Assembly (NCBI GenBank): GCA_020073085.1
Contig: JAIQFV010000010.1
Location: 62,001 to 126,000 of the forward strand
Reading direction: 5' to 3'
From: Terriglobia bacterium
GTDB taxonomy: Bacteria > Acidobacteriota > Terriglobia > JAIQFV01
DNA: 64,000 nt
Made by a program: the position numbers and the translations under genes. A model generated the notes under the pieces. The model searched no databases and was not told the origin of the DNA. It saw only the letters and a list, made by a program, of their open reading frames with translations. Shown piece by piece: positions 651 through 33,700 of this stretch. The first letter of the stretch is position 1; the number at the start of each line of letters is the position of its first letter.

Positions 651-928
651 CCTTGGGGCGGCCAACTTTCCACCGGGCCCAGATCACTTGAGTTGGTTTC
701 TCTGCGCTGCCCTCCTTTGGCCTGAATCAAACCTCCCTTTTCGAAGTGGATGCGCGCTCTGGTGTCAACGAATCCGTCTTTTCGAGTCCATGTCCCTTCC
801 CCGCTGAGAGCGTGCCACCCCCATTTTCTCTTTTGACGCCTTGATTCTCCCGGCCCGCTTGTGACACCCTGCGACTCCTCCCCCCCATCTTCGAGGCGAT
901 TCGCTCCCAAGCGCTCCCTTCAGAGTTT
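651..928. other. Intergenic stretch without a recognisable gene
   Basis: No convincing coding region was seen between the permease remnant and the first Pho-like box. Minus-strand open frames exist here (for example 647-910), but they show no family resemblance and no good ribosome binding site. They are probably chance frames or decayed sequence. Confidence 0.5.
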
Positions 929-967
929 TTAACACAATCATCATGTTGGTTTAATGTTCCCTTAATG
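929..967 (+). promoter_or_regulatory. Putative Pho box, array A (distal to pstS)
   Basis: Half-sites TTAAC (929), ATCAT (940), TTAAT (951) and TTAAT (962) lie exactly 11 bp apart, each followed by a short spacer. PhoB/PhoP-type regulators bind direct repeats with this 11-bp period. The array is almost the same as the one upstream of the porin at 31098-31135 (reverse strand), and weak likeness continues about 40 bp downstream. It ends about 290 bp before the pstS start, so it may serve a distal pst promoter or be left from a lost gene. Confidence 0.6.
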
Positions 968-1177
968 TGAATCTTCGATGATGTCATCCTCTTAAAAGAT
1001 TAGGAACATCTCGAGGAATGAAGGCGTGGATTCAACGGATGAACCCCGAGGAAACCGCTCATCACTGAATACTCTTTCTTGACTCGAAGGCCATGGTTCG
1101 TTGGAGCCGGGCAGCCCAAGAATGCTCATGCCAGCCTGGGTTATTTCGATCCGCGTTATGTGCCTCCTTGATGAAGC

Positions 1178-2291: not shown

Positions 2292-2432
2292 TCCGGGAGA
2301 ACAGGTGAGAATCTCCAGGGAGTGGTTCCGGCATTATCCAATGAACTCCTGTGTGCAGGTGAATGCCCGCGGGGCTGGGTGCAAGGTTCCAGCCCCATTT
2401 TTTCAGGCGAGTTTTGGAAATCACTGACCTCC

Positions 2433-3434
2433 ATGAATGAACAGTTGGTAAGCGAGCCTCCGGAGATCGCGGCCCTCTCAGCCCCTCCATCCCTGTTTTC
2501 ACGTTCGTGGACCCAGCGCTTCCGGATGGGAGATCTGGTTGCCCGCGGGATCACTTTCCTGGCCGCCCTCTCGGTTCTCGTGATCACGGGGGCTCTGGCG
2601 TGGGAACTGTACAAGGGCTCGGTGCCGAGCCTCAATGCATTCGGCTGGAGTTTTGTTACCCAGAAGACCTGGGATCCAGTCTTCTTATCCTTCGGCTCCA
2701 TCACCTTTATGTTTGGAACCCTCGTCACTTCCGTGATTGCGCTTCTGGTGGCGGTGCCGGTCGGGATTGGGGCGGCGATTTTTCTAGCCGAACTGGCGCC
2801 CCGGGCCATTTCTTCGGCTCTGACCTTCGTGATCGAGTTATTGGCGGCAGTTCCGAGCGTCATTTACGGCCTGCTGGGAATCTTCGTCCTGGTTCCGTTC
2901 ATGCGCGAGCATGGCGGAGCTTGGTTGAAAGCAGCCCTGGGGTTCCTTCCGATTTTTTCGGGACCCAACTACGGGGTGGGTGTGCTCACGGCTGGAATCG
3001 TGTTGGCCGTGATGATCGTTCCTTTCATTATTTCGATCTCCCGGGAAGTGCTCCTGGCCGTTCCTCGCGAGCAGCGCGAGGCGTCCATGGCGTTGGGGGC
3101 GACGCACTGGGAGACCACGTGGCATGTCGCCCTGGTCTACGCGCGATCGGGGATTTTTGGATCCATTTTTCTGGCGCTGGCTCGCTCCCTCGGCGAGACG
3201 ATGGCGGTGACGATGGTAATCGGGAACACGCCACAGATCTCTGCCTCGCTCTTCGCGCCCGGGTACACCATGGCCGCGGTCATTGCCAACGAGTTCACGG
3301 AGGCGACCGGGGATCTTTATTTGAGCGCCCTGGTGGAGATCGGGCTGCTGCTCTTTGTGATGACCATGATCATCAACGCCCTGGCGCGACTGTTGCTCTG
3401 GAGCACGGTGCGCAAACAGGGAGCGGCGGCATGA
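2433..3434 (+). CDS. pstC: Phosphate ABC transporter permease PstC
   Basis: PstC is one of the two inner-membrane channel subunits of the high-affinity phosphate importer. About six hydrophobic segments are visible. The EAA-loop of ABC permeases lies near REQREASMALGATHWETTW, and SLGETMAVTMVIGNTP is a PstC hallmark. The frame stays open to 2322, but the ATG at 2433 (MNEQLVSEPP) gives a normal length of 333 residues; its Shine-Dalgarno is weak, so the start is moderately sure. It lies 141 bp after pstS. The gap to pstA holds two palindromic repeats. Confidence 0.93.
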   Translation: MNEQLVSEPPEIAALSAPPSLFSRSWTQRFRMGDLVARGITFLAALSVLVITGALAWELYKGSVPSLNAFGWSFVTQKTWDPVFLSFGSITFMFGTLVTSVIALLVAVPVGIGAAIFLAELAPRAISSALTFVIELLAAVPSVIYGLLGIFVLVPFMREHGGAWLKAALGFLPIFSGPNYGVGVLTAGIVLAVMIVPFIISISREVLLAVPREQREASMALGATHWETTWHVALVYARSGIFGSIFLALARSLGETMAVTMVIGNTPQISASLFAPGYTMAAVIANEFTEATGDLYLSALVEIGLLLFVMTMIINALARLLLWSTVRKQGAAA

Positions 3435-3452
3435 GCCGGAGCTTCGATGTGG

Positions 3453-3538
3453 AGCCGACGTCCCCGTCGGCTGCGGTCATGAATCATAGTTCGACCGGGG
3501 TCTTAATCCTGCAAGGGAGGCAGACGAGGACGTCTGCC
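3453..3538. repeat. Pair of related GC-rich palindromes in inverted orientation
   Basis: Two hairpins lie between pstC and pstA. The first (3453-3472) has arms AGCCGACG/CGTCGGCT around a 4-nt loop. The second (3519-3538) has arms GGCAGACG/CGTCTGCC around a 4-nt loop. Read on the opposite strand, the second has the same core as the first (GACGTCCYCGTC), so they are two copies of one repeat family facing each other, like a REP/BIME pair. Each could act as a processing or attenuation hairpin in the pst transcript. Confidence 0.65.
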
Positions 3539-3551
3539 CCACGAGAGTCGA

Positions 3552-4385
3552 ATGCGTAGAAAGATCACCAATTACCTGGTTTTCTCCCTGACATCGCTCT
3601 GTGCGCTGCTGGCGGTTTCCGTCCTGCTGTTTATTCTCGGTTACCTCCTTTGGCACGGGGGGAGGTCCATCAATTGGGCATTCCTGACCCAGCTTCCCAA
3701 ACCGGTGGGTGAATCCGGTGGTGGAATTTCCAACGCGATTGTCGGGTCGTGCAAGATCATCCTGATTGCCGCCCTGTTCGGAGTTCCCCTTGGATTTCTG
3801 GGAGCCCTCTACCTTGTGGAGTATGGCGGAACGAGGTTCAATTTTGGCGTCCGCTATGCCACCGACCTGCTCAACGGTGTTCCTTCGATCGTCATTGGCA
3901 TCTTTGCCTACACCCTGATCGTGCTTCGGACGAGACATTTCTCGGCCTGGGCGGGGGGATTCGCGTTGGGGATCATGATGATTCCCACGGCGCTGCGAAG
4001 CACGGAGGAATTCCTGCGCCTGGTCCCCCGGGAACTGAGAGAGGCGGCCTACGCGCTGGGGGCCCCGCAATGGAAGGTGATTGTAACGGTCGTGATCCCG
4101 GTCGCTATGCGCGGGATCCTGACGGGGATTATGTTGTCGGTGGCCCGGATCGCGGGCGAGACCGCCCCGCTGCTCTTTACCTCCTTCGGGAACCGGTTTT
4201 GGTCGCACGGCTTGAATGAGCCGACGGCCTCGTTGCCCGTGATGATCTTCACTTACGCCGTCGGGCCCTATGACGACTGGCACCAACAGGCCTGGGCCGC
4301 CGGATTGATCCTGTTGTTGGGCGTCCTGCTGACCAATATTGTGGTGCGGGTATTTTTGCGAGATTCGGGACACGCTTATTTATAG
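3552..4385 (+). CDS. pstA: Phosphate ABC transporter permease PstA
   Basis: Second channel subunit of the Pst importer, paired with PstC in the inner membrane. The 277-residue product starts with an arginine/lysine-rich tip and a strong membrane segment. It carries GVPSIVIGIFAYTL, the EAA-type loop RELREAAYALGAPQWK (about 162-177) and ARIAGETAPLLFTSFGN, all typical of PstA. Length is normal. It is separated from pstC by 117 bp holding two palindromes and is followed by pstB after 110 bp. Confidence 0.94.
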   Translation: MRRKITNYLVFSLTSLCALLAVSVLLFILGYLLWHGGRSINWAFLTQLPKPVGESGGGISNAIVGSCKIILIAALFGVPLGFLGALYLVEYGGTRFNFGVRYATDLLNGVPSIVIGIFAYTLIVLRTRHFSAWAGGFALGIMMIPTALRSTEEFLRLVPRELREAAYALGAPQWKVIVTVVIPVAMRGILTGIMLSVARIAGETAPLLFTSFGNRFWSHGLNEPTASLPVMIFTYAVGPYDDWHQQAWAAGLILLLGVLLTNIVVRVFLRDSGHAYL

Positions 4386-4495
4386 CCCGCTGCCGGGTCC
4401 CGCCGGCCAATGTGGTGGTGGCGGTATTTTACCGACCCCGGATTGTGGGACCTGGGAACGGCTGATCATTACTACCCGCGGAGAAGGATCGTTTC

Positions 4496-5431
4496 ATGAG
4501 CACTCCGGAGAATCTCGATGAACAGGAAAGCAGGATTCCTCAGATGAGGTTTGATCGGATGGAAGTCGAAGAGGAAGAGATGTCCCCATCGAATACAGAA
4601 AACGGACAGACGCCGGCCATCACCTTGCTTAGAACGGAACTTCCCCCGGGGACCTCGCCCAACCGCACCTTGCAGGCGGTGAAAGTATCCGCGGAGCACC
4701 TCAACTTCTTCTATGGACAGAAGCAGGCGCTGGAGGACATCTGCATTCAGATCCGGGAGCAGTGCGTCACTGCCTTCATTGGTCCCTCGGGCTGCGGCAA
4801 ATCGACCTTTCTGCGGACGATGAATCGGATGAACGACCTGATCCCGGGCGCAAGGGTGGACGGGACGGTGCTCATTGATGGACGGGATATTTATGCCCGC
4901 CAGGCAGACCCCATCGAGCTGCGCCGCCGCGTGGGAATGATCTTTCAAAAATCCAACCCCTTTCCCAAATCCATTTATGAGAACGTGGCCTACGGACTTC
5001 GCATCAACAGACTGGCACACTCCAAGAAGGCCCTGGACGAAGTGGTGGAACGAACCCTCCGCGGAGCGGCGTTGTGGGATGAGGTGAAAGACTCACTCCA
5101 TAAATCCGCTCTGGCTCTTTCCGGGGGACAGCAGCAGCGGCTGTGCATCGCACGCGCCCTGGCCATCGAGCCGGAGATCCTGCTGATGGACGAACCCGCC
5201 TCCGCGCTCGATCCGATCTCCACTGCCAAGATCGAAGAACTGATCTTTGAACTGAAGAAACAATACACGATCGTCATCGTCACACACAACATGCAGCAGG
5301 CTGCTCGCGTCAGTGATTTTACCGGCTTCTTTCTCATTGGAAGATTGATGGAATTCGGCGACACCCGAAGAATCTTCACGAACCCGGTCAAAAAGGAGAC
5401 AGAGGATTACATCACGGGTCGTTTCGGTTAA
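4496..5431 (+). CDS. pstB: Phosphate ABC transporter ATPase PstB with acidic N-terminal extension
   Basis: PstB is the cytoplasmic ATPase that drives PstCA. Walker A is GPSGCGKST (residues 96-104). The ABC signature is LSGGQQQR, followed by Walker [13 protein letters not shown] and the switch histidine in VTHNMQQA. At 311 residues it is about 50-60 longer than usual. The extra N-terminal part is acidic ([10 protein letters not shown]) and lies before the usual start near residue 60. The ATG at 4496 has a plausible GGAGAAGGA ribosome site, but the ATGs at residues 22 and 29 are alternatives. It lies 110 bp after pstA. Confidence 0.94.
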
Positions 5432-5473
5432 AATGAGGCCTCCGAATCATGCCGACGACCCGGAGAATGTCCG

Positions 5474-5656
5474 ATGAAACCATGGATGCGCGCTTCATTG
5501 TTTTGCTGTTTGGTGAGTTTATGTGCCTCGTTCACCCTGGGGGCGGAGGAGGGACCGGCTGTCAAGGAATTCAAGATGACGGCGAAGAAGTATGAATTCA
5601 CACCCAACGAAATCCGGGTCAAACAAGGAGACACGGTTAAAAGGAATGGGAGCTAA
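5474..5656 (+). pseudogene. Truncated secreted cupredoxin-like protein
   Basis: The 60-residue product has a clear signal peptide (to about residue 24, ending near TLGAEE). The first strands of a cytochrome c oxidase subunit II-like or plastocyanin-like cupredoxin follow: FKMTAKKYEFTPNEIRVKQGDTV. Homology stops exactly after this point, and all copper ligands (His, Cys, His, Met), which lie further on in such proteins, are missing. A heptamer repeat begins a few bases after the stop, so the 3' part was probably lost in a rearrangement there. It lies between pstB and phoU on the same strand. It cannot bind copper as encoded. Confidence 0.7.
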
Positions 5657-5663
5657 CGCGATC

Positions 5664-5691
5664 CTGACACCTAACACCTAATACCTAACAC
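5664..5691. repeat. Heptamer tandem repeat (CTRAYAC), copy 1
   Basis: Four consecutive 7-mers, CTGACAC, CTAACAC, CTAATAC and CTAACAC, fill the gap between the truncated cupredoxin gene and phoU. The same unit on the other strand (GGTGTTA/GGTAATA) occurs near 24651, 59430 and 60719. Confidence 0.8.
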
Positions 5692-5702
5692 CTGATTTCC
5701 CC

Positions 5703-6377
5703 ATGCATCGACACTTTGAAGAAGATCTTTCCGAATTGAAACAGAAGCTGCTCGCCATGGGCTCACTGGTGGAGCGGGCCTTGCACCAGGCCATCAAGGC
5801 GCTGGTGGAGCGTGATGCCCAGTTGGGACTTCAAGTCTTTGAAGGCGAAGAGGCCATCAACATGCTCCAGATTGAGATCGACGACCGGGCCATGCGTCTG
5901 CTGGCGTTGCAGCAGCCCATGGCGACGGACCTGCGCCTCATTGCCTCGGCGGTCAAGATCAACAACGACCTCGAACGCATCGGCGATCTCTGTGTCAACA
6001 TAGCGCAGCGAGTGCTTTCGCTGATCAATCAGCCGCCCATTTCCCCGATGATCGATCTGCCAAGAATGGCAGCGCTGGCCGAAAAGATGCTGCACGACGG
6101 CTTGGACGCCTTTGTCAACCGCAATGCCGACCTCGCCCGCAATGTCCTTGAAAGCGATGACAAGGTCGACCGCCTGAGGGATGATATTTTCCAGGAACTG
6201 GTTCGGTTCATGACCTCGCATCCCGATGCGGTTCAGCGCGGTATTGACCTGCTGCTGATCTCCCGGAATATCGAACGCGTCGCGGACCATGCCACCAATG
6301 TCGCGGAAGACGTGATCTACGTCGTGGCGGGCAGGGACGTCCGCCACCACATCGAAGAAACGATCCGCCCCAATTGA
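5703..6377 (+). CDS. phoU: Phosphate signalling protein PhoU
   Basis: PhoU is a cytoplasmic negative regulator that couples PstSCAB to the sensor kinase PhoR and dampens the Pho response when phosphate is plentiful. The 224-residue product has the two three-helix PhoU repeats. The first has the metal-site pattern around LRLIASAVKINNDLERIGDLCVNIAQR and the second the matching LLISRNIERVADHATNVAEDVIY. Length is normal. It lies downstream of pstB with a broken gene and a heptamer repeat between. No phoR/phoB pair is present in the window. Confidence 0.95.
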   Translation: MHRHFEEDLSELKQKLLAMGSLVERALHQAIKALVERDAQLGLQVFEGEEAINMLQIEIDDRAMRLLALQQPMATDLRLIASAVKINNDLERIGDLCVNIAQRVLSLINQPPISPMIDLPRMAALAEKMLHDGLDAFVNRNADLARNVLESDDKVDRLRDDIFQELVRFMTSHPDAVQRGIDLLLISRNIERVADHATNVAEDVIYVVAGRDVRHHIEETIRPN

Positions 6378-6550
6378 CCTTGCCCCTCGCGAAAGCAGGA
6401 GACCGGCTCCATGTTCGAGACCCACTGATCTTCTCCCCCCACAACAGCGACGCCCACCCTCCGGACGCCACACTTGGCCGCTGCGGGTCATGGCATTTAA
6501 CCGTCGATCTCCCGGCTCGAACCGATGAAAGGATCAACCGAGGTGTCCTG

Positions 6551-7690
6551 ATGCTGGAAAGAAGGATTTACGACCTGATCGAAGAAGCCTCCACGGGAGA
6601 GCACAGCGGAAGCTTTGGGGTCCATTTGCTGGACAGGCTGTATTCCACTTTCGCAGAGGACCTCGGAATCTCCTCGTGTGAACTCTGGCAACGGCTGAAG
6701 GGCGAAACTCGTCGGGTGAGCGCGCGAGGAGAAGCGCTCTCCCCGGAGTTTTCCCACGGGCTGCAGGCCCTATCGCGTCGACATAAGAAATCAAATCCAT
6801 TCTGGCACCCCGGGAACGAGATCCACCTTCCGGTCGCCGTGGTGATGTTCGGGAGAAAACAGAAGTCATTCCTGACGTTTTACTTCCGCCCGGCGGTGCT
6901 CGAGACCGACCGCGAAAGAATTGAGGAGACGATCCTCCTCATCACCCGCCTGGTCACCATGTTCGTCCAAAAGCATGAGGAGAGAAACCAGTTGCATGAG
7001 ATCCTCTCTCTTTCCAGGCATCAACAGCAACGATTGCTGTCCCAGAGTCAACCGTTTTTTGCCGGATATGAAATGCTGGCTCACTCGGACCCGTCCGAGA
7101 TTGTGGGCGGGGATTACTACAACTTGGAGCTGTTGTCGCCGGAGGTCCTGGCTGTCACCATCGCGGATGCGAAGGGGAAGGGTTTCATCGCCGCCGTCCA
7201 AATCACGGCGCTGCATCGCTGTGTGCGCCTGGTTAATCGTGAACCGCTGAAACTCACGGCAAAGATGGGGAGGTTAAATCAAGCATTTAACGACGAAGGG
7301 GACGACCGGGATCTGATCTCTGCGGTTTTGTGCGAGCTCCATCAGGATGGCCGGTTCCTGTATGTCAACGCGTCGCATCCCTATCCTTTGCTGCGGCGCG
7401 GGCATGAATTGATCGAACTGGACGAGGGCGGCCTGTTTGTCGGCCTTCAACCCGAAGCGAAATACCGTTTTGGAATGGTGGAGATGGCGCGTGGCGACCT
7501 GCTCTGCCTTTATACGGACGGGATCTCCGAATCGGAAAGCGGAGAACAGGACCACCTCCCTCAGATGAAGGACTTGCTCATTCAGGAGGGCGAACGGCCA
7601 CTGCGAGAACTGGCTGAGTCAATTTTGAGCCTCACCAGCAGTCGGGAAAACCGGGATGACCGCACCCTCTTGATGATCCGCCGACTGTAA
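6551..7690 (+). CDS. SpoIIE/RsbU-type PP2C phosphatase with N-terminal sensor region
   Basis: A 379-residue protein serine phosphatase of the kind that dephosphorylates anti-sigma-factor antagonists. The N-terminal 190 residues look like a GAF-type sensor followed by a coiled linker (QKHEERNQLHEIL). The catalytic domain shows VGGDYYN, IADAKGKGFIAAV, LYTDGISES and the terminal RDDRTLLMI, which supply the metal-binding aspartates. The frame is open from 6374, overlapping phoU, but the ATG at 6551 has a good GAGGTG ribosome site and starts the recognisable domain. It is the last gene of the pst-phoU run and ends before a strong terminator. A link to phosphate signalling is inferred from position only. 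Confidence 0.85.
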   Translation: MLERRIYDLIEEASTGEHSGSFGVHLLDRLYSTFAEDLGISSCELWQRLKGETRRVSARGEALSPEFSHGLQALSRRHKKSNPFWHPGNEIHLPVAVVMFGRKQKSFLTFYFRPAVLETDRERIEETILLITRLVTMFVQKHEERNQLHEILSLSRHQQQRLLSQSQPFFAGYEMLAHSDPSEIVGGDYYNLELLSPEVLAVTIADAKGKGFIAAVQITALHRCVRLVNREPLKLTAKMGRLNQAFNDEGDDRDLISAVLCELHQDGRFLYVNASHPYPLLRRGHELIELDEGGLFVGLQPEAKYRFGMVEMARGDLLCLYTDGISESESGEQDHLPQMKDLLIQEGERPLRELAESILSLTSSRENRDDRTLLMIRRL

Positions 7691-9333: not shown

Positions 9334-9437
9334 ACGGTTTCCTCCCTTGGCTTCGATAGCCAGGATTCATCCGGCGAAGGGGATCTTCGCCGGGTCAATG
9401 GATTTGAAGGCTAACGGGCGGAGTCTAAGGGAAGAGT

Positions 9438-9475
9438 GTTTAAGGAATGTGAGGGGGGTGTTAAGTTTGTATTAA
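9438..9475 (-). promoter_or_regulatory. Putative Pho box upstream of phosphoesterase gene
   Basis: Read on the minus strand, TTAAT (from 9475), TTAAC (from 9464), CTCAC (from 9453) and a weak TAAAC (from 9442) follow each other at 11-bp steps. The array ends about 105 bp before the phosphoesterase start at 9333. Two of the four units are good matches, so it is weaker than the pstS arrays. Confidence 0.55.
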
Positions 9476-9552
9476 GCCCGACCAACTTAGGGCCCTGGAA
9501 AGTATTCCAGGAGCGGGGTAACAGGCGCGAGGATGAATTTCATTCCCTCCCG

Positions 9553-28107: not shown

Positions 28108-28206
28108 ATTCCACCTCGGAGGGGAGACTATTGTCCCCAACTCTTGACCTCACAGCGCGCCATTGCCTTGTCCTCCGGACGGGCTGCTCCCTGACGGCTG
28201 AGGATT

Positions 28207-28437
28207 CCCCAACTCCGTTAGGAGTGGCATCTTTGTAGCCCGAGGCCTTGTTTGCTTTTCCTAAATCAACCCCGTAGGGGTGACATCTGAGTTGCCAAAA
28301 TCAAATCGCCGGAACAATCCCGTGCGGCCCACGGCCCGAACAATAGCACACCCAGATGCCACCCCTACGGGGTTCAACTACCCAGCGACGGGGTAGGACC
28401 GACAGCTACAAAGAGGCCACTCCTAACGGAGTTGGGG
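28207..28437. repeat. 231-bp nested inverted-repeat element
   Basis: Outer arms of 33 bp (28207-28239 and 28405-28437) match at 32 of 33 positions. Inner arms of 22 bp (28268-28289 and 28353-28374) match at 21 of 22. The outer arm ends in CTTTGTAGC, and the inner arm contains the palindrome CCCCGTAGGGG. The centre, about 60 bp, is unpaired. No gene is inside. The form is that of a non-autonomous mobile element or a compound REP element. Confidence 0.8.
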
Positions 28438-29033
28438 GATGGCGCATTCCAAAGTGTACCAGCTCCCTTTGGTGTCTTGACCCTGCACCGCGGTTCCCAG
28501 GTTTTCAAACAGACGTGAGACCGGCATAAATAAACGGCTGAAAGCAACTCGTAAGAAATTCTTTCCGGTAAAGGCGCAAGAACCACTGATAAGATCCCAA
28601 AAACCAAGCTCATGCAGACCGGGACCTACCTGTAACCTTGGGAAGGGTGAAGGCATTCCCCTCCGAATTGACAGCCACTGGATGAGATCTCAAACTGTAA
28701 CGATACACAATCATCAGCCAAAAGTGAAGTGGCTCTTCTCTCCACCGAAGCCTCCGGCCAGGTTTCTCCGGTAATGCGCGCGCGGATGGTGACCATCGAC
28801 GCGAAGATCTCCCTGGTTTTTTCCGGATGTCAGGCAGGCGAGTCCGACCGTCCGATGCCGCTTTGATGAGGGTCGAGGAACAACGAGAGAAGGATTGAAC
28901 AAGCGGGGACCGCACCGATCCACTTAGCATCAATCGGTACGGTCCCCATCTCTATCAATTTCGGGGGAAAAAGAACCCGCCACGGGCGGGCTCAGCATGA
29001 AAAAGAGTGAACTCCCCTCCTGCCGCGGAGCAG
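28438..29033. other. Intergenic stretch with shared 34-bp motif
   Basis: About 600 bp before the end of the porin gene. No convincing gene was found. It contains the motif at 28697-28730. A short hairpin near 28970-28995 (gaacCCGCCacGGGCGGgct) lies just past the porin stop and may act in ending its transcript. Confidence 0.5.
28697..28730. promoter_or_regulatory. Shared two-block motif, copy 1
   Basis: Blocks GTAACGATACACAA and CAAAAGTGAAGT are separated by 8 bp. The same two blocks with the same spacing recur at 42549-42582, while the spacer differs. Conserved blocks around a variable spacer suggest a protein-binding site or a promoter. No neighbouring gene lies in a normal position for it here. 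Confidence 0.45.
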
Positions 29034-30839
29034 CTATGGGATGTAGTAACGGAAGGAAGTGAAGACCATGTTTTCGATGCCATGGGGTGACCCATTCGAT
29101 ATAACCGGCACACCGGTCACCGTGCCAGTTCCTACGCCGGACCAGGTGTTGCGTGAGATATAGGAGTACTGGGGTCCCCACTGGATCGTACCTTTCGGGC
29201 CCTTGTAGAAGCGATACCAGAACCCGATGGTTCCTTCGATGAGGTTCTTCGTATCACCGGTGCAGTTGCCGCCAAGCGAACCGGGAACAAAGCCCGTCGA
29301 GCCGCCAACACCAGTCGGAGTCGATACCGCCGCTCCCGGCAGAGGCTCGACAAGGCAAGCGAAGTTGTTAAACAGCGGCGAACCGTATCCCACCGCTTTA
29401 CCGGCGGCAGTGTAGGCGGTGCGGGCGGCATATTCTCCCCCGGCGTACATGTAGATGTCCAATTTGGGCGTGGGATGCAACTCGAGGGCGCCCAGCGACT
29501 GGAAGTTGCGGATCGGAGCAAGAGTCCCGTCGGGACGCACGGTTACATCCGGCAGTCCACTCGTACCATAGCGGCCAATCCCGTCCCCAGCCAGGAAGTG
29601 AAGACCGACTTCCACTTTCTTGTTGGCAAGCGGCACTCGAGCGTTGATGCCAACGCCTCCGCCCAGGCGGTTGTCGTTAAACGCTCCCGCCGTGGGATTC
29701 GTGGCGGACGCAAAGTTCGGATACACGCGATCCCGGAAGTTGCGGAGAACCCCGAACACCTCAAAGTGTCCCCAGCCCGGCTCGAAGGCGGCTTTCGCAA
29801 TGAAATCCGGGGCCGCGCTAAAGGCGTAGTTGGCAATGGGATTAAAAAGACCGCCACCAGTGCCGGGGGCGCCGAGAAGGAAGTTGTTATTGTTGCCGTG
29901 GACGGTGAGGGTGGTCGCCGGACTCTCGACCGAGAATCCTAGCCATACTTTGTCACCAAGGTTCTTTGTCACACGGAATCCGTACTGTCGCGCCCAACTG
30001 AAGCCAACCGTATATTGGGCGTCGATGGTCAGCGGCGCCGCCTCCGTTCGGTTGTCGAGGCCTTTCCTGGTCTCCGTCACCAGGCTCCACATCTGCCCGC
30101 CAGTGACCGTCCAGCCGCTGTTAAAATTGGCCTGCCCCCAGAATTGGCGCTGGCGGAAGGTGTAGCTGTTGCTCTGGTTGTTGTTCGAGGTGACGCCAGC
30201 GGACAGGAAGTCGGCTTCATAGTACCCGCCGATCTTCACGTTTGCCAGTTTGCCTTCCGCCAGCATGCTGATGCGGGACTGCCGCCCCGAAGCATTGAAC
30301 TCAGAAATCTGATTCGTCGGGCTCCCCTGAAACGGGACGGCATTCAAGGGAGTGTTAATGTCGGCACTCAGGGCCTTGCTTCGCCACACTGTTTCAGCCA
30401 CCATGAAGCCGCCCGGTGTCAGCGTGATCCCCTTGAAGTGGATGGCCGTCGGCGCGTCGGCCTTTTCTGCCCCGGCTTGCGGGCTTGCCGTCCCAATCGC
30501 GGGAGTCATGGCCCCTATGGATGGAAGAACTCCGGCCGCGGAATTTGGAGCGGATGGGAGCACAGGAGTAACGCTCGCCACCTGCCCGAGACTGGGCGAT
30601 GGGGACCCCTGGACCGTCTGATTCTGTCGCTGGACCATCTCATTCATCAGTTTGCGAAGTTCTTCAATTTGCTTCTGCTGGTCAGCAATTTGTTTCTTCA
30701 ATTGAGAAACATCGTTGCTTTGCCTCGAATCGTTTGCCTGCGCTGTCGCCTGCGCCTGTGAAAAGGCGAGGGATACCAAACTGAATAAGAGGATTACCCC
30801 CAAAGCTATCCGCCTACCTGGTTTTCCAGTGATCTCCAT
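29034..30839 (-). CDS. Outer-membrane porin with N-terminal coiled coil
   Basis: A 601-residue outer-membrane beta-barrel. The ATG at 30839 is chosen over 30875 because AGGAG lies 7 bp before it. A signal peptide ends near LAFSQA. A short coiled coil follows (QLKKQIADQQKQIEELRKLM), as in porins that use it as a periplasmic trimer or wall-contact stalk. After a Pro/Ala-rich linker come alternating beta strands to the end. The overall type is that of DcaP/acidobacterial porins. It has a Pho-like box about 260 bp upstream, nearly the same as the distal pstS box, so it may be a phosphate- or organophosphate-selective channel. That is inference. Confidence 0.85.
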   Translation of the reverse strand: MEITGKPGRRIALGVILLFSLVSLAFSQAQATAQANDSRQSNDVSQLKKQIADQQKQIEELRKLMNEMVQRQNQTVQGSPSPSLGQVASVTPVLPSAPNSAAGVLPSIGAMTPAIGTASPQAGAEKADAPTAIHFKGITLTPGGFMVAETVWRSKALSADINTPLNAVPFQGSPTNQISEFNASGRQSRISMLAEGKLANVKIGGYYEADFLSAGVTSNNNQSNSYTFRQRQFWGQANFNSGWTVTGGQMWSLVTETRKGLDNRTEAAPLTIDAQYTVGFSWARQYGFRVTKNLGDKVWLGFSVESPATTLTVHGNNNNFLLGAPGTGGGLFNPIANYAFSAAPDFIAKAAFEPGWGHFEVFGVLRNFRDRVYPNFASATNPTAGAFNDNRLGGGVGINARVPLANKKVEVGLHFLAGDGIGRYGTSGLPDVTVRPDGTLAPIRNFQSLGALELHPTPKLDIYMYAGGEYAARTAYTAAGKAVGYGSPLFNNFACLVEPLPGAAVSTPTGVGGSTGFVPGSLGGNCTGDTKNLIEGTIGFWYRFYKGPKGTIQWGPQYSYISRNTWSGVGTGTVTGVPVISNGSPHGIENMVFTSFRYYIP

Positions 30840-31097
30840 TTTTTGCTCCTGTATTATTGGGAATTTACCGCTCAACTGTCGTGCTCGCTTAAACCTGTTG
30901 CGTCGTCAGGTTCGTTGGAAGGGAACCCGGGAAATTCGTCGCCGGAGGAACCGATATACACAAGTGTCTGCCAATTCCGTAGCGGGTTCTGTCAACTGCG
31001 GCCCCTGTTTCTCGACTTGGAATTCGAAATTCAATGGTCGAAAATCTTCCAGGTGCCCTAAATCTGTTTCAAGAGGTCTGTATCTTCGGAAACCCAC
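30840..31097. other. Leader between porin gene and its Pho-like box
   Basis: The region between the porin start and the box at 31098 has no gene. It would form a long 5' leader of the porin transcript if transcription starts next to the box. Confidence 0.4.
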
Positions 31098-31135
31098 GTT
31101 AAGGCAACATTAAAGGAACGTGATAATTGTGTTAA
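31098..31135 (-). promoter_or_regulatory. Putative Pho box, array B (porin side)
   Basis: Read on the minus strand, TTAAC (from 31135), ATCAC (from 31124), TTAAT (from 31113) and TTAAC (from 31102) follow at exactly 11-bp steps. The whole 45-bp block is nearly the same as array A at 929-967, including the divergent second unit. It lies in the divergent region between the porin and the kinase gene, 196 bp from the latter, and could serve either. Confidence 0.65.
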
Positions 31136-31330
31136 AAATCTTGAAGCCGCCGGGTTTAGACGACTCGCGATGAAGGGGACTGACACCTTTTTCGCTATCA
31201 ATCCGATGCCCTCATAAATGCCGGTGTCTGTCTCCGCTTGATCCTTATCAGAACAATCAGCCCCATTGACTTGCAATGCGGCCGGTCGTACGATGCCCAG
31301 CAGAGCGTGAAAGGAAAGGAGTTTGTCCGC

Positions 31331-33700
31331 ATGCCCGACCGAGCCCCGGCTCAGTGCTCTTTGGCAGGCCTGAAGCTGGGTCACTACCGCATAGTCGAGA
31401 AAATCGGCGCGGGGGGCGGGGGGGAAGTCTATCGCGCTCACGATGAACACCTTGACCGCGAGGTGGCCATCAAAATTCTTCCACCGGGCACTCTGCCTGA
31501 CCAAGTCGCCCGCAAACGCTTTCGCAAGGAAGCCCTCTCACTCTCCAAGCTCGACCATCCTAATATCGCGACAATTCATGACTTCGACAGCGAGGGAACT
31601 ACCGACTTTCTGGTGATGGAGTACATCGCCGGGGAGACACTCAGCGAGAAGCTATCCGGAACACTGCCGGAAAAAGAGATCGCAGAGCTGGGTGTGCAAA
31701 TGGCCGAGGCGCTGGCGGCTGCCCACGCCGTAGGAGTGACTCACTGCGATCTGAAGCCCGACAACATTCGGCTCACGACTGAGGGCAGGCTGAAAATACT
31801 CGATTTCGGGCTGGCAAGGATGACGCGGGTGATCGCGGACACGACCACCGAGAGCACGGCCGTAACCCATGGCGTAGCCGGCACGCTGCCCTATATGGCG
31901 CCGGAACAGTTGCGGGGCGAGGACGTGGACGCCCGCACTGACATTTACGGGGCTGGGATGGTTTTGTACGAGATTGCGACAGGCAGGCGGCCTTTCCAGT
32001 CAGATGTCTCCGCTACGCTGGTGGACCAGATCCTCCACGCGCCCCCACCCCCGCCCGGCCGGTTCAGAACCGACCTTTCGACGAGGTTGGAGGAGATCAT
32101 CTTCAAGTGTCTGGAAAAGGATCCCGAGGACCGGTATGAGTCAGCCAGGCAGTTGCGCGTGGATCTCGGCCGGGTGCTATCGCCGCACGTCACCCCTGAA
32201 GCGGCTGTCCGTCCGCGGCGGCGTTCATCCCGCTGGAAATTCTACGCCGCTGCCGGCTTCCTGGTGCTGCTGGCAGCTCTGACGTGGTGGTCTCTGCCGG
32301 GGCGGAAGGCAGTCCCTGCCGCCGTACAAACCAGCGTAGCCGTCCTGCCATTCCAAAACCTAGGATCCGACAAGGAGTCCGATTATCTGCGGCTCGCCTT
32401 GCCTGACGAAGTCGCCACCCTCCTCAGCTATGCGCCCGATCTCATCATCAGACCGTTTACCGCAACGCAGATGTATGCGACTGGACCGATCGAACCACAA
32501 CGCGCTGGTCGGGAACTGCGTGTCGCTAAGATCGTTACCGGCCATTTCGCCAGAGAGGGCCCTCGAATTCGCGTCACCTTGGAAGCCATCGATGCCGGCA
32601 GCAATCGCTTGCTGTGGCATGACACGTTGACCTTCCAAAGCGATGATCACGTCAATCTGGAGGACCAGATGGTCACGCGCGTTCGACAGGGGCTCGTTCT
32701 CGCGCTCGCCCGCTCCGCCCTCTCGACCCCGCCCGCCACCCACCCCCGGAACGAGGAGGCATACGAGCTCTACCTCAGAAGCATTGCCATTCCGCACGAC
32801 GGCAACGACAACAAACAGGGGATCGCCATGCTGGAGCGGTCGATCGGACTGGACACCGCGTACGCGCCGGCATGGGCTGAAGCCGGACAGCGGTACCTCT
32901 ACGATTCCCAATACTCTGATGGTGGCCCGCCTGCGCGACGTCGCGCCCAGGTTGCCACCGAGCGGGCGCTGAGCCTTGACCCCAACTTGCTGGCTGCGGC
33001 GAGGCTGATGATCGCGCTTCGCACCGAAGCGGGCGAACTGGACGACGCCTACAACCTGGCGGAACAATTGGTCGAGAAACGCCCGGAGAGCGGCGAGGCG
33101 CACTTCGGCCTCAGCTATGTGCTTCGGTATGCAGGCCGCCTCGAGGAAGCCGGGCGGGAGTGCGACACCGCGATGCGACTTGATCCTGCCAACGCCCAGT
33201 TTCGTTCCTGCGCGATTACGTTCGAACTGTTACGGAGAGACGATCGTGCAAGAGAATGTGCGCGTTTGGATGCGGGGTCAAACTTCTCCTCGTGGCAAAC
33301 GGTTTTTGTTCTGCTCGCAGAGCGAAAGATCCAGGAAGCGATGCCGATTCTCACCGGACTGCGGAACAATTATGTGCAAGCCGGACTGATTCTGGCCTAT
33401 CTGCACCACGATAGCCCCGAGCAAATCAGGAGGTTGTCGGAGCGATCCGAGCAGATCAACGTAAATCTGGCCGATCCCGAGCAGGCGTACGTGGACGCCA
33501 GAGTCCAATCCTTCTGTCAACAGCCCGGGGCGGCACTGCGGCAACTCCGTCGCGCCGTGGAAAAGAATTACTGTAGTTATCCGGGGTTGGAGACGGACCC
33601 GCTTCTCGAGAACGTGCGGAAGACCCCGGAATTTCAGGAAGTGCGCCAGTCCGCAGCTGCCTGCTCGAAGAAATTCGCTGCCGCACACGGACTGCAGTGA
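31331..33700 (+). CDS. Membrane Ser/Thr protein kinase with TolB-like and TPR domains
   Basis: A 789-residue bacterial Hanks-type kinase. The glycine loop is GAGGGGEV (26-33), the ATP lysine Lys48, the catalytic loop HCDLKPDN (138-145, with Cys instead of the usual Arg before Asp140), DFG at 158-160 and APE at 190-192. A membrane segment lies at 303-321. The outer part starts with a TolB/FlgO-like module (SVAVLPFQNLGSDKESDYL) and ends in TPR repeats to about residue 740. The ATG at 31331 has AAAGGAG nine bases before it. It is divergent from the porin. Such fusions are abundant in Acidobacteriota; the signal is unknown. Confidence 0.92.
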   Translation: MPDRAPAQCSLAGLKLGHYRIVEKIGAGGGGEVYRAHDEHLDREVAIKILPPGTLPDQVARKRFRKEALSLSKLDHPNIATIHDFDSEGTTDFLVMEYIAGETLSEKLSGTLPEKEIAELGVQMAEALAAAHAVGVTHCDLKPDNIRLTTEGRLKILDFGLARMTRVIADTTTESTAVTHGVAGTLPYMAPEQLRGEDVDARTDIYGAGMVLYEIATGRRPFQSDVSATLVDQILHAPPPPPGRFRTDLSTRLEEIIFKCLEKDPEDRYESARQLRVDLGRVLSPHVTPEAAVRPRRRSSRWKFYAAAGFLVLLAALTWWSLPGRKAVPAAVQTSVAVLPFQNLGSDKESDYLRLALPDEVATLLSYAPDLIIRPFTATQMYATGPIEPQRAGRELRVAKIVTGHFAREGPRIRVTLEAIDAGSNRLLWHDTLTFQSDDHVNLEDQMVTRVRQGLVLALARSALSTPPATHPRNEEAYELYLRSIAIPHDGNDNKQGIAMLERSIGLDTAYAPAWAEAGQRYLYDSQYSDGGPPARRRAQVATERALSLDPNLLAAARLMIALRTEAGELDDAYNLAEQLVEKRPESGEAHFGLSYVLRYAGRLEEAGRECDTAMRLDPANAQFRSCAITFELLRRDDRARECARLDAGSNFSSWQTVFVLLAERKIQEAMPILTGLRNNYVQAGLILAYLHHDSPEQIRRLSERSEQINVNLADPEQAYVDARVQSFCQQPGAALRQLRRAVEKNYCSYPGLETDPLLENVRKTPEFQEVRQSAAACSKKFAAAHGLQ

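Follow-up and report, generated by a model that had tools for sequence, protein, structure and literature searches.

Gene organization of the locus

The window, i.e., the whole 64,000-nucleotide stretch of DNA analyzed here, carries a phosphate transport operon composed of pstS (1257-2291, + strand) followed by pstC, pstA, pstB, and phoU (2322-6377, +). Further along lie a phosphoesterase family gene (PF04185; 7786-9333, -), hereafter the 7786 phosphoesterase, and a porin gene (29034-30839, -; ATG at 30839) whose 601-amino-acid product combines, according to gene reading and a structure model, a coiled coil and a 16-strand barrel. A protein kinase gene with TPR (31238-33700, +) is divergent from the porin gene, a neighborhood that was not seen in most relatives. 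Directly 3' of phoU and overlapping its end, a SpoIIE-type phosphatase gene (6374-7690) could possibly provide an extra output of phosphate sensing.

Several repeated segments surround the porin gene. The interval between the kinase gene and the porin box described below holds a REP-like element (31166-31244; GACTGACACC ... GGTGTCTGTC), copies of which, with 84 to 89% identity, are paired ~200 bp apart in G001, a genome of the same genus. A long imperfect inverted repeat (28200-28480; CCCCAACTCCGTTAGGAGTGG ... CCACTCCTAACGGAGTTGGGG, with CCCCTACGGGG inside) is found 3' of the porin gene and has related copies in G001:C12, while the nearby 28600-28780 segment is 81% identical to G001:C67:51678-51857.

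Pho-type boxes and the copied promoter

Direct reading of the window revealed two PhoB-type boxes, each made of four units of 11 bp, roughly (C/T)TTAA(C/T)(A/G)N4, namely, the distal pstS box, or box A (928-971, +; TTTAACACAATCATCATGTTGGTTTAATGTTCCCTTAATGTGAA), which a genome-wide pattern also retrieved, and the porin box (31136-31093, -; TTTAACACAATTATCACGTTCCTTTAATGTTGCCTTAACGTGGG), which scored 9.5 with a motif trained on the relatives, the window being excluded. Two further boxes precede pstS (proximal box, or box B; 1177-1220, +), with a score of 11.1 for the porin-trained motif without the window, and the 7786 phosphoesterase gene (9433-9476, -), where the box came from a pattern search. 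A TAGACT -10 element stands 9 to 10 bp 3' of both box B (at 1227-1232) and the phosphoesterase box (at 9427-9422), and a TAGnnT -10 is conserved at the same spacing in related porin promoters; the window porin has at this spacing a weak -10-like GAAGAT (31082-31087, -) that may be its equivalent. PhoB-activated promoters are built in this way, with a box and a -10 but no -35.

The count of boxes in the genome was drawn from pattern searches. Within the window, a 3-unit pattern matched only at box A and the porin box (0.05 match expected); the genome-wide pattern likewise returned no others, its reversed-pattern control matching 0 times forward and once in reverse, and when a second pattern search of the 5.79-Mb genome is included, all matches still lay in the pst and porin boxes. 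A looser pattern added the 9433-9476 box together with three scattered matches, the reversed control giving at least as many. The only credible boxes in the 5.8-Mb genome are those of pst (two), the porin, and the 7786 phosphoesterase, all of them inside 31 kb. Four full-length OmpR/PhoB-type regulators are encoded in this genome, the best reaching 271 bits, below the 296.2-bit PhoB cut-off. The gene of this PhoB-like regulator (G000:C10:23911-24591) lies 38 kb from pst, next to a kinase gene whose product has a PhoR-like phosphorylation region. The 19 kb surrounding the regulator gene contained no box with a score of at least 12.

As judged from their sequences, the porin box and box A are copies of one promoter of ~135 bp, covering 31045-31178 (-) and 883-1017 (+). 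The two boxes, whose near-identity had been pointed out in the earlier note, share 38 of 44 bases (6 mismatches) over the span from TTTTTAACAC to GTG. Identity reaches 89% in the unit 7-mers and 69% in the N4 spacers, the latter comparing with a mean of 26% and a maximum of 56% among the other Pho-type boxes. The gapped alignment of 883-1017 with 31178-31045 gave a local score of 104 versus a shuffle maximum of 48, and the box-anchored flanks alone scored 48, the maxima being 39 for 400 shuffles and 30 for 102 pairs with other boxes. It is conceivable that a strict binding site by itself produced the likeness without any duplication, both boxes looking functional for one regulator and site selection possibly being enough to keep the 7-mers alike, but the spacers and the flanks on both sides agree far more than in other box pairs, which makes this reading very improbable and argues for a copied promoter, more than a shared binding site. 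The duplication proposed in the earlier note is therefore upheld and extends into both flanks, whereas the second unit that it had called odd (TCATG/TCACG) is ordinary, TTCAC or TTCAT being the usual inner unit of the box in relatives.

Box and pstS link in related porin loci

A collection scan yielded 80 related porin loci, nearly all Acidobacteriota by label, and 75 were scored for the box. The motif was learnt from the porin upstream regions and applied in a five-fold held-out test with a score of >8 as a pass; it was used instead of a hand-made unit matrix, which penalized ATTCAC and gave low scores to many relatives. Its consensus in the relatives is ATTCACcgaATATTCAcCgaacttTCACCaatTtTTAACA. 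An own box was present in 44 of the 75 held-out porins, versus 2 of 1,500 shuffled upstream regions. Twelve further porins lie directly behind pstS, and there the box preceded pstS in 12/12 cases and the porin in 0/12 (Fisher P of 5e-6 for this association). The link to pst through a Pho box, either own or ahead of an adjacent pstS, is kept in 56/75 loci, which strongly supports, on comparative grounds, the proposal of the earlier note that the porin is induced by phosphate starvation. The same proposal gains from the behavior of the porin-trained motif on the 718 other open reading frame upstream regions of these loci, since it singled out pstS promoters: 12 to 13 passed, including 11 of pstS and one of a tandem porin. 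On the protein tree, the own-box and behind-pstS states interchange at least six times, and the link is therefore not a single inherited arrangement.

Neither state was found in 19 of the 75 loci, among them four Edaphobacter loci (the Edaphobacter branch); in one of these, L147, pstSCA lies 2 to 5 kb upstream. The check for the box in close relatives that the earlier note had proposed found it in most relatives, the nearest (L075) scoring 12.8, and not in some, e.g., L076, L081, and the Edaphobacter branch. It also occurs in cultured Acidipila rosea DSM 103428 and strain ZG23-2. In two genomes (G003 and G049), the porin gene immediately 5' of pstS encodes a more distant member of the family. 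One contig labelled Betaproteobacteria (L149) carries a boxed porin of the window family positioned within the acidobacterial tree, which could reflect either a transfer or a mislabelled bin.

The porin and its predicted fold

The AlphaFold2 monomer model (mffc88939e5e0; 68 aligned sequences; strand count read from the listing) predicts an N-terminal coiled coil (residues 39 to 78) and a 16-strand barrel, with pLDDT mostly >90. The nearest solved structure is DcaP (6eus), with a Z score of 36.5 and an rmsd of 2.2 over 342/346 residues, the next best having a Z score of 24.7. The window porin (P0001) had no Pfam match to PF07396 (Porin_O_P), and the same search of its own genome gave none, while two control genomes did match; PF19577 (DcaP) did not match P0001 at E values up to 10, and the corresponding genome search gave no decisive answer, its controls being silent. 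Across the Porin_O_P, DcaP, and NCBIfam families, no barrel match was obtained for the window porin, only coiled-coil matches, and a PDB sequence search with the family profile retrieved mainly coiled coils and no porin barrel. The pI of the barrel is 9.3 in the window porin, with a family median of 8.6. Conserved acidic residues are almost as numerous in the family as conserved arginines, and the sequence does not, therefore, prove a preference for phosphate.

Discussion

Because the box is shared with pst, the link is kept in relatives, and the motif picks pstS promoters, we consider that the porin gene very probably belongs to the Pho regulon, under PhoB control and with induction at low phosphate. 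Computation gave the boxes, their duplication, the predicted fold, and the link to pstS across the family; PhoB binding, induction, and the cargo are what we infer here. We propose a model in which, at low phosphate, the PhoR-like kinase would phosphorylate the PhoB-like regulator, which would then bind the four 11-bp units replacing the -35 and recruit RNA polymerase to the -10 located ~9 to 10 bp downstream. This would result in the joint switch-on of pstSCAB-phoU, the 7786 phosphoesterase gene, and the porin gene. The porin, probably trimeric by analogy with DcaP, would give phosphate and small phosphate esters passage through the outer membrane for capture by PstS.

Control by another regulator of the OmpR/PhoB family, answering another signal, could account for the box, pst and the porin then sharing it for some other reason. 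The genome does encode four such regulators, 0/4 of them above the PhoB cut-off, but the near exclusivity of the motif for pstS among the tested open reading frames of the relatives, together with the box marking the phosphoesterase here, makes this explanation improbable. Even less credible, and hardly worth retaining, is that the kinase gene at 31238, divergent from the porin gene, is the target of the box: the box does sit between the two genes, but it is oriented towards the porin, and box and porin stay together in relatives devoid of the kinase.

A PhoB-controlled porin might nevertheless be a general anion or dicarboxylate channel with a role in starvation other than phosphate entry, e.g., the uptake or release of organic acids. 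The fold is nearest to DcaP by a wide margin, and the window porin lies outside the Porin_O_P family. DcaP of Acinetobacter baumannii is described as forming trimers of a 16-strand barrel, with a coiled coil in the periplasm and an affinity for anionic compounds, and its family takes up di- and tricarboxylates, DcaP3 of A. baumannii being required for growth on these (PMC12338516). As DcaP relatives carry carboxylates, the cargo may thus be anions in general. Against this, the pstS-porin or porin-pstS order found in many relatives points to phosphate, and a purely general anion channel appears rather unlikely. On account of this gene order, we favor, with some reserve, phosphate or its esters as the principal cargo; the DcaP-like preference for anionic compounds, taken by analogy, fits phosphate without proving it. 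A strict, OprP-like selectivity for phosphate is doubtful. The phosphate-selective channel suggested in the earlier note receives partial support: the predicted fold is nearest to the anion channel DcaP, but the porin lies outside the OprP/OprO sequence family, and the DcaP family takes up carboxylates. The best reading is that of a PhoB-controlled outer membrane partner of Pst.

OprP and OprO of Pseudomonas aeruginosa are phosphate and polyphosphate porins under phosphate starvation control, and PhoE of Escherichia coli is an anion-preferring porin under PhoB control. Like OprP and OprO, the window porin is a predicted 16-strand outer membrane barrel with a phosphate starvation-type box; unlike them, it has no PF07396 match, and OprP reached a TMt of 0.53 in the fold search versus 0.83 for DcaP. 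With DcaP it shares the predicted barrel fold and the N-terminal coiled coil; it differs by the lack of a PF19577 match (18% identity) and, DcaP being linked to carboxylic acids, by the Pho-type box and the pstS neighbors of its family. The likeness to PhoE (1pho) is limited to the general porin fold, with a Z score of 24.1 that is level with ordinary porins. The boxes of E. coli PhoB and Bacillus PhoP consist of 11-bp direct repeats arranged head to tail, and the Bacillus unit is TTAACA-like. The acidobacterial box shares this arrangement and a unit of the Bacillus kind, and is distinguished from them by its consensus, its four units, and the TAGnnT that follows. In the literature searched, which covered few subscription journals, we found no paper defining an acidobacterial box consensus, no description of the phosphate regulon or of an outer membrane phosphate route in Acidobacteriota, and no previous report of the box or of the porin family from that phylum; as evidence of novelty, this is weak.

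Many of the soils in which Acidobacteriota abound are phosphate-poor. Our analysis supplies a box consensus that can be tested and, with members in cultured strains, a candidate family of porins. We lean towards the view that, in Terriglobia, a dedicated and as yet unnamed family of porins with a DcaP-like fold partners Pst at the outer membrane. Its gene would repeatedly have left or joined the pst operon, with Pho control retained at stand-alone sites as well, and unrelated porins would fill the slot in sister species. If so, regulation would have remained constant despite changes in gene position and, among sister species, in the very family of the porin.

The pst slot of related genomes bears on this history. 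G001 and G002, the latter a genome of the same family, share the arrangement box, porin, box, pstSCAB. The porin in this slot is a Porin_5 protein in G001, where the window porin was not found at an E value of 0.001, and in G002 its similarity to the window porin family is confined to the coiled-coil part. In the window, the 205 bp between boxes A and B hold no porin, and the slot is reduced to the box. A search for a deleted-porin remnant at 961-1180, against both the porin region and G001, gave only chance-level matches and so leaves a move of the porin away from the pst operon as no more than a possibility. One simple history would have the pst-slot porin lost or relocated and the promoter copied to the porin gene at 29 to 31 kb, in whichever order. 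Upstream of pst, the genome under study has efflux-type genes (adaptor and RND-like open reading frames; G000:C10 58549-62900), where G001:C81 has its Porin_5 porin. Finally, a weaker box-like stretch is conserved in both genomes of the genus, at position 2008 of L059 and position 6780 of L060 (CTTAACCGAAGCTATAAGTACTTGTCATCAAAGTTTAACA in L060).
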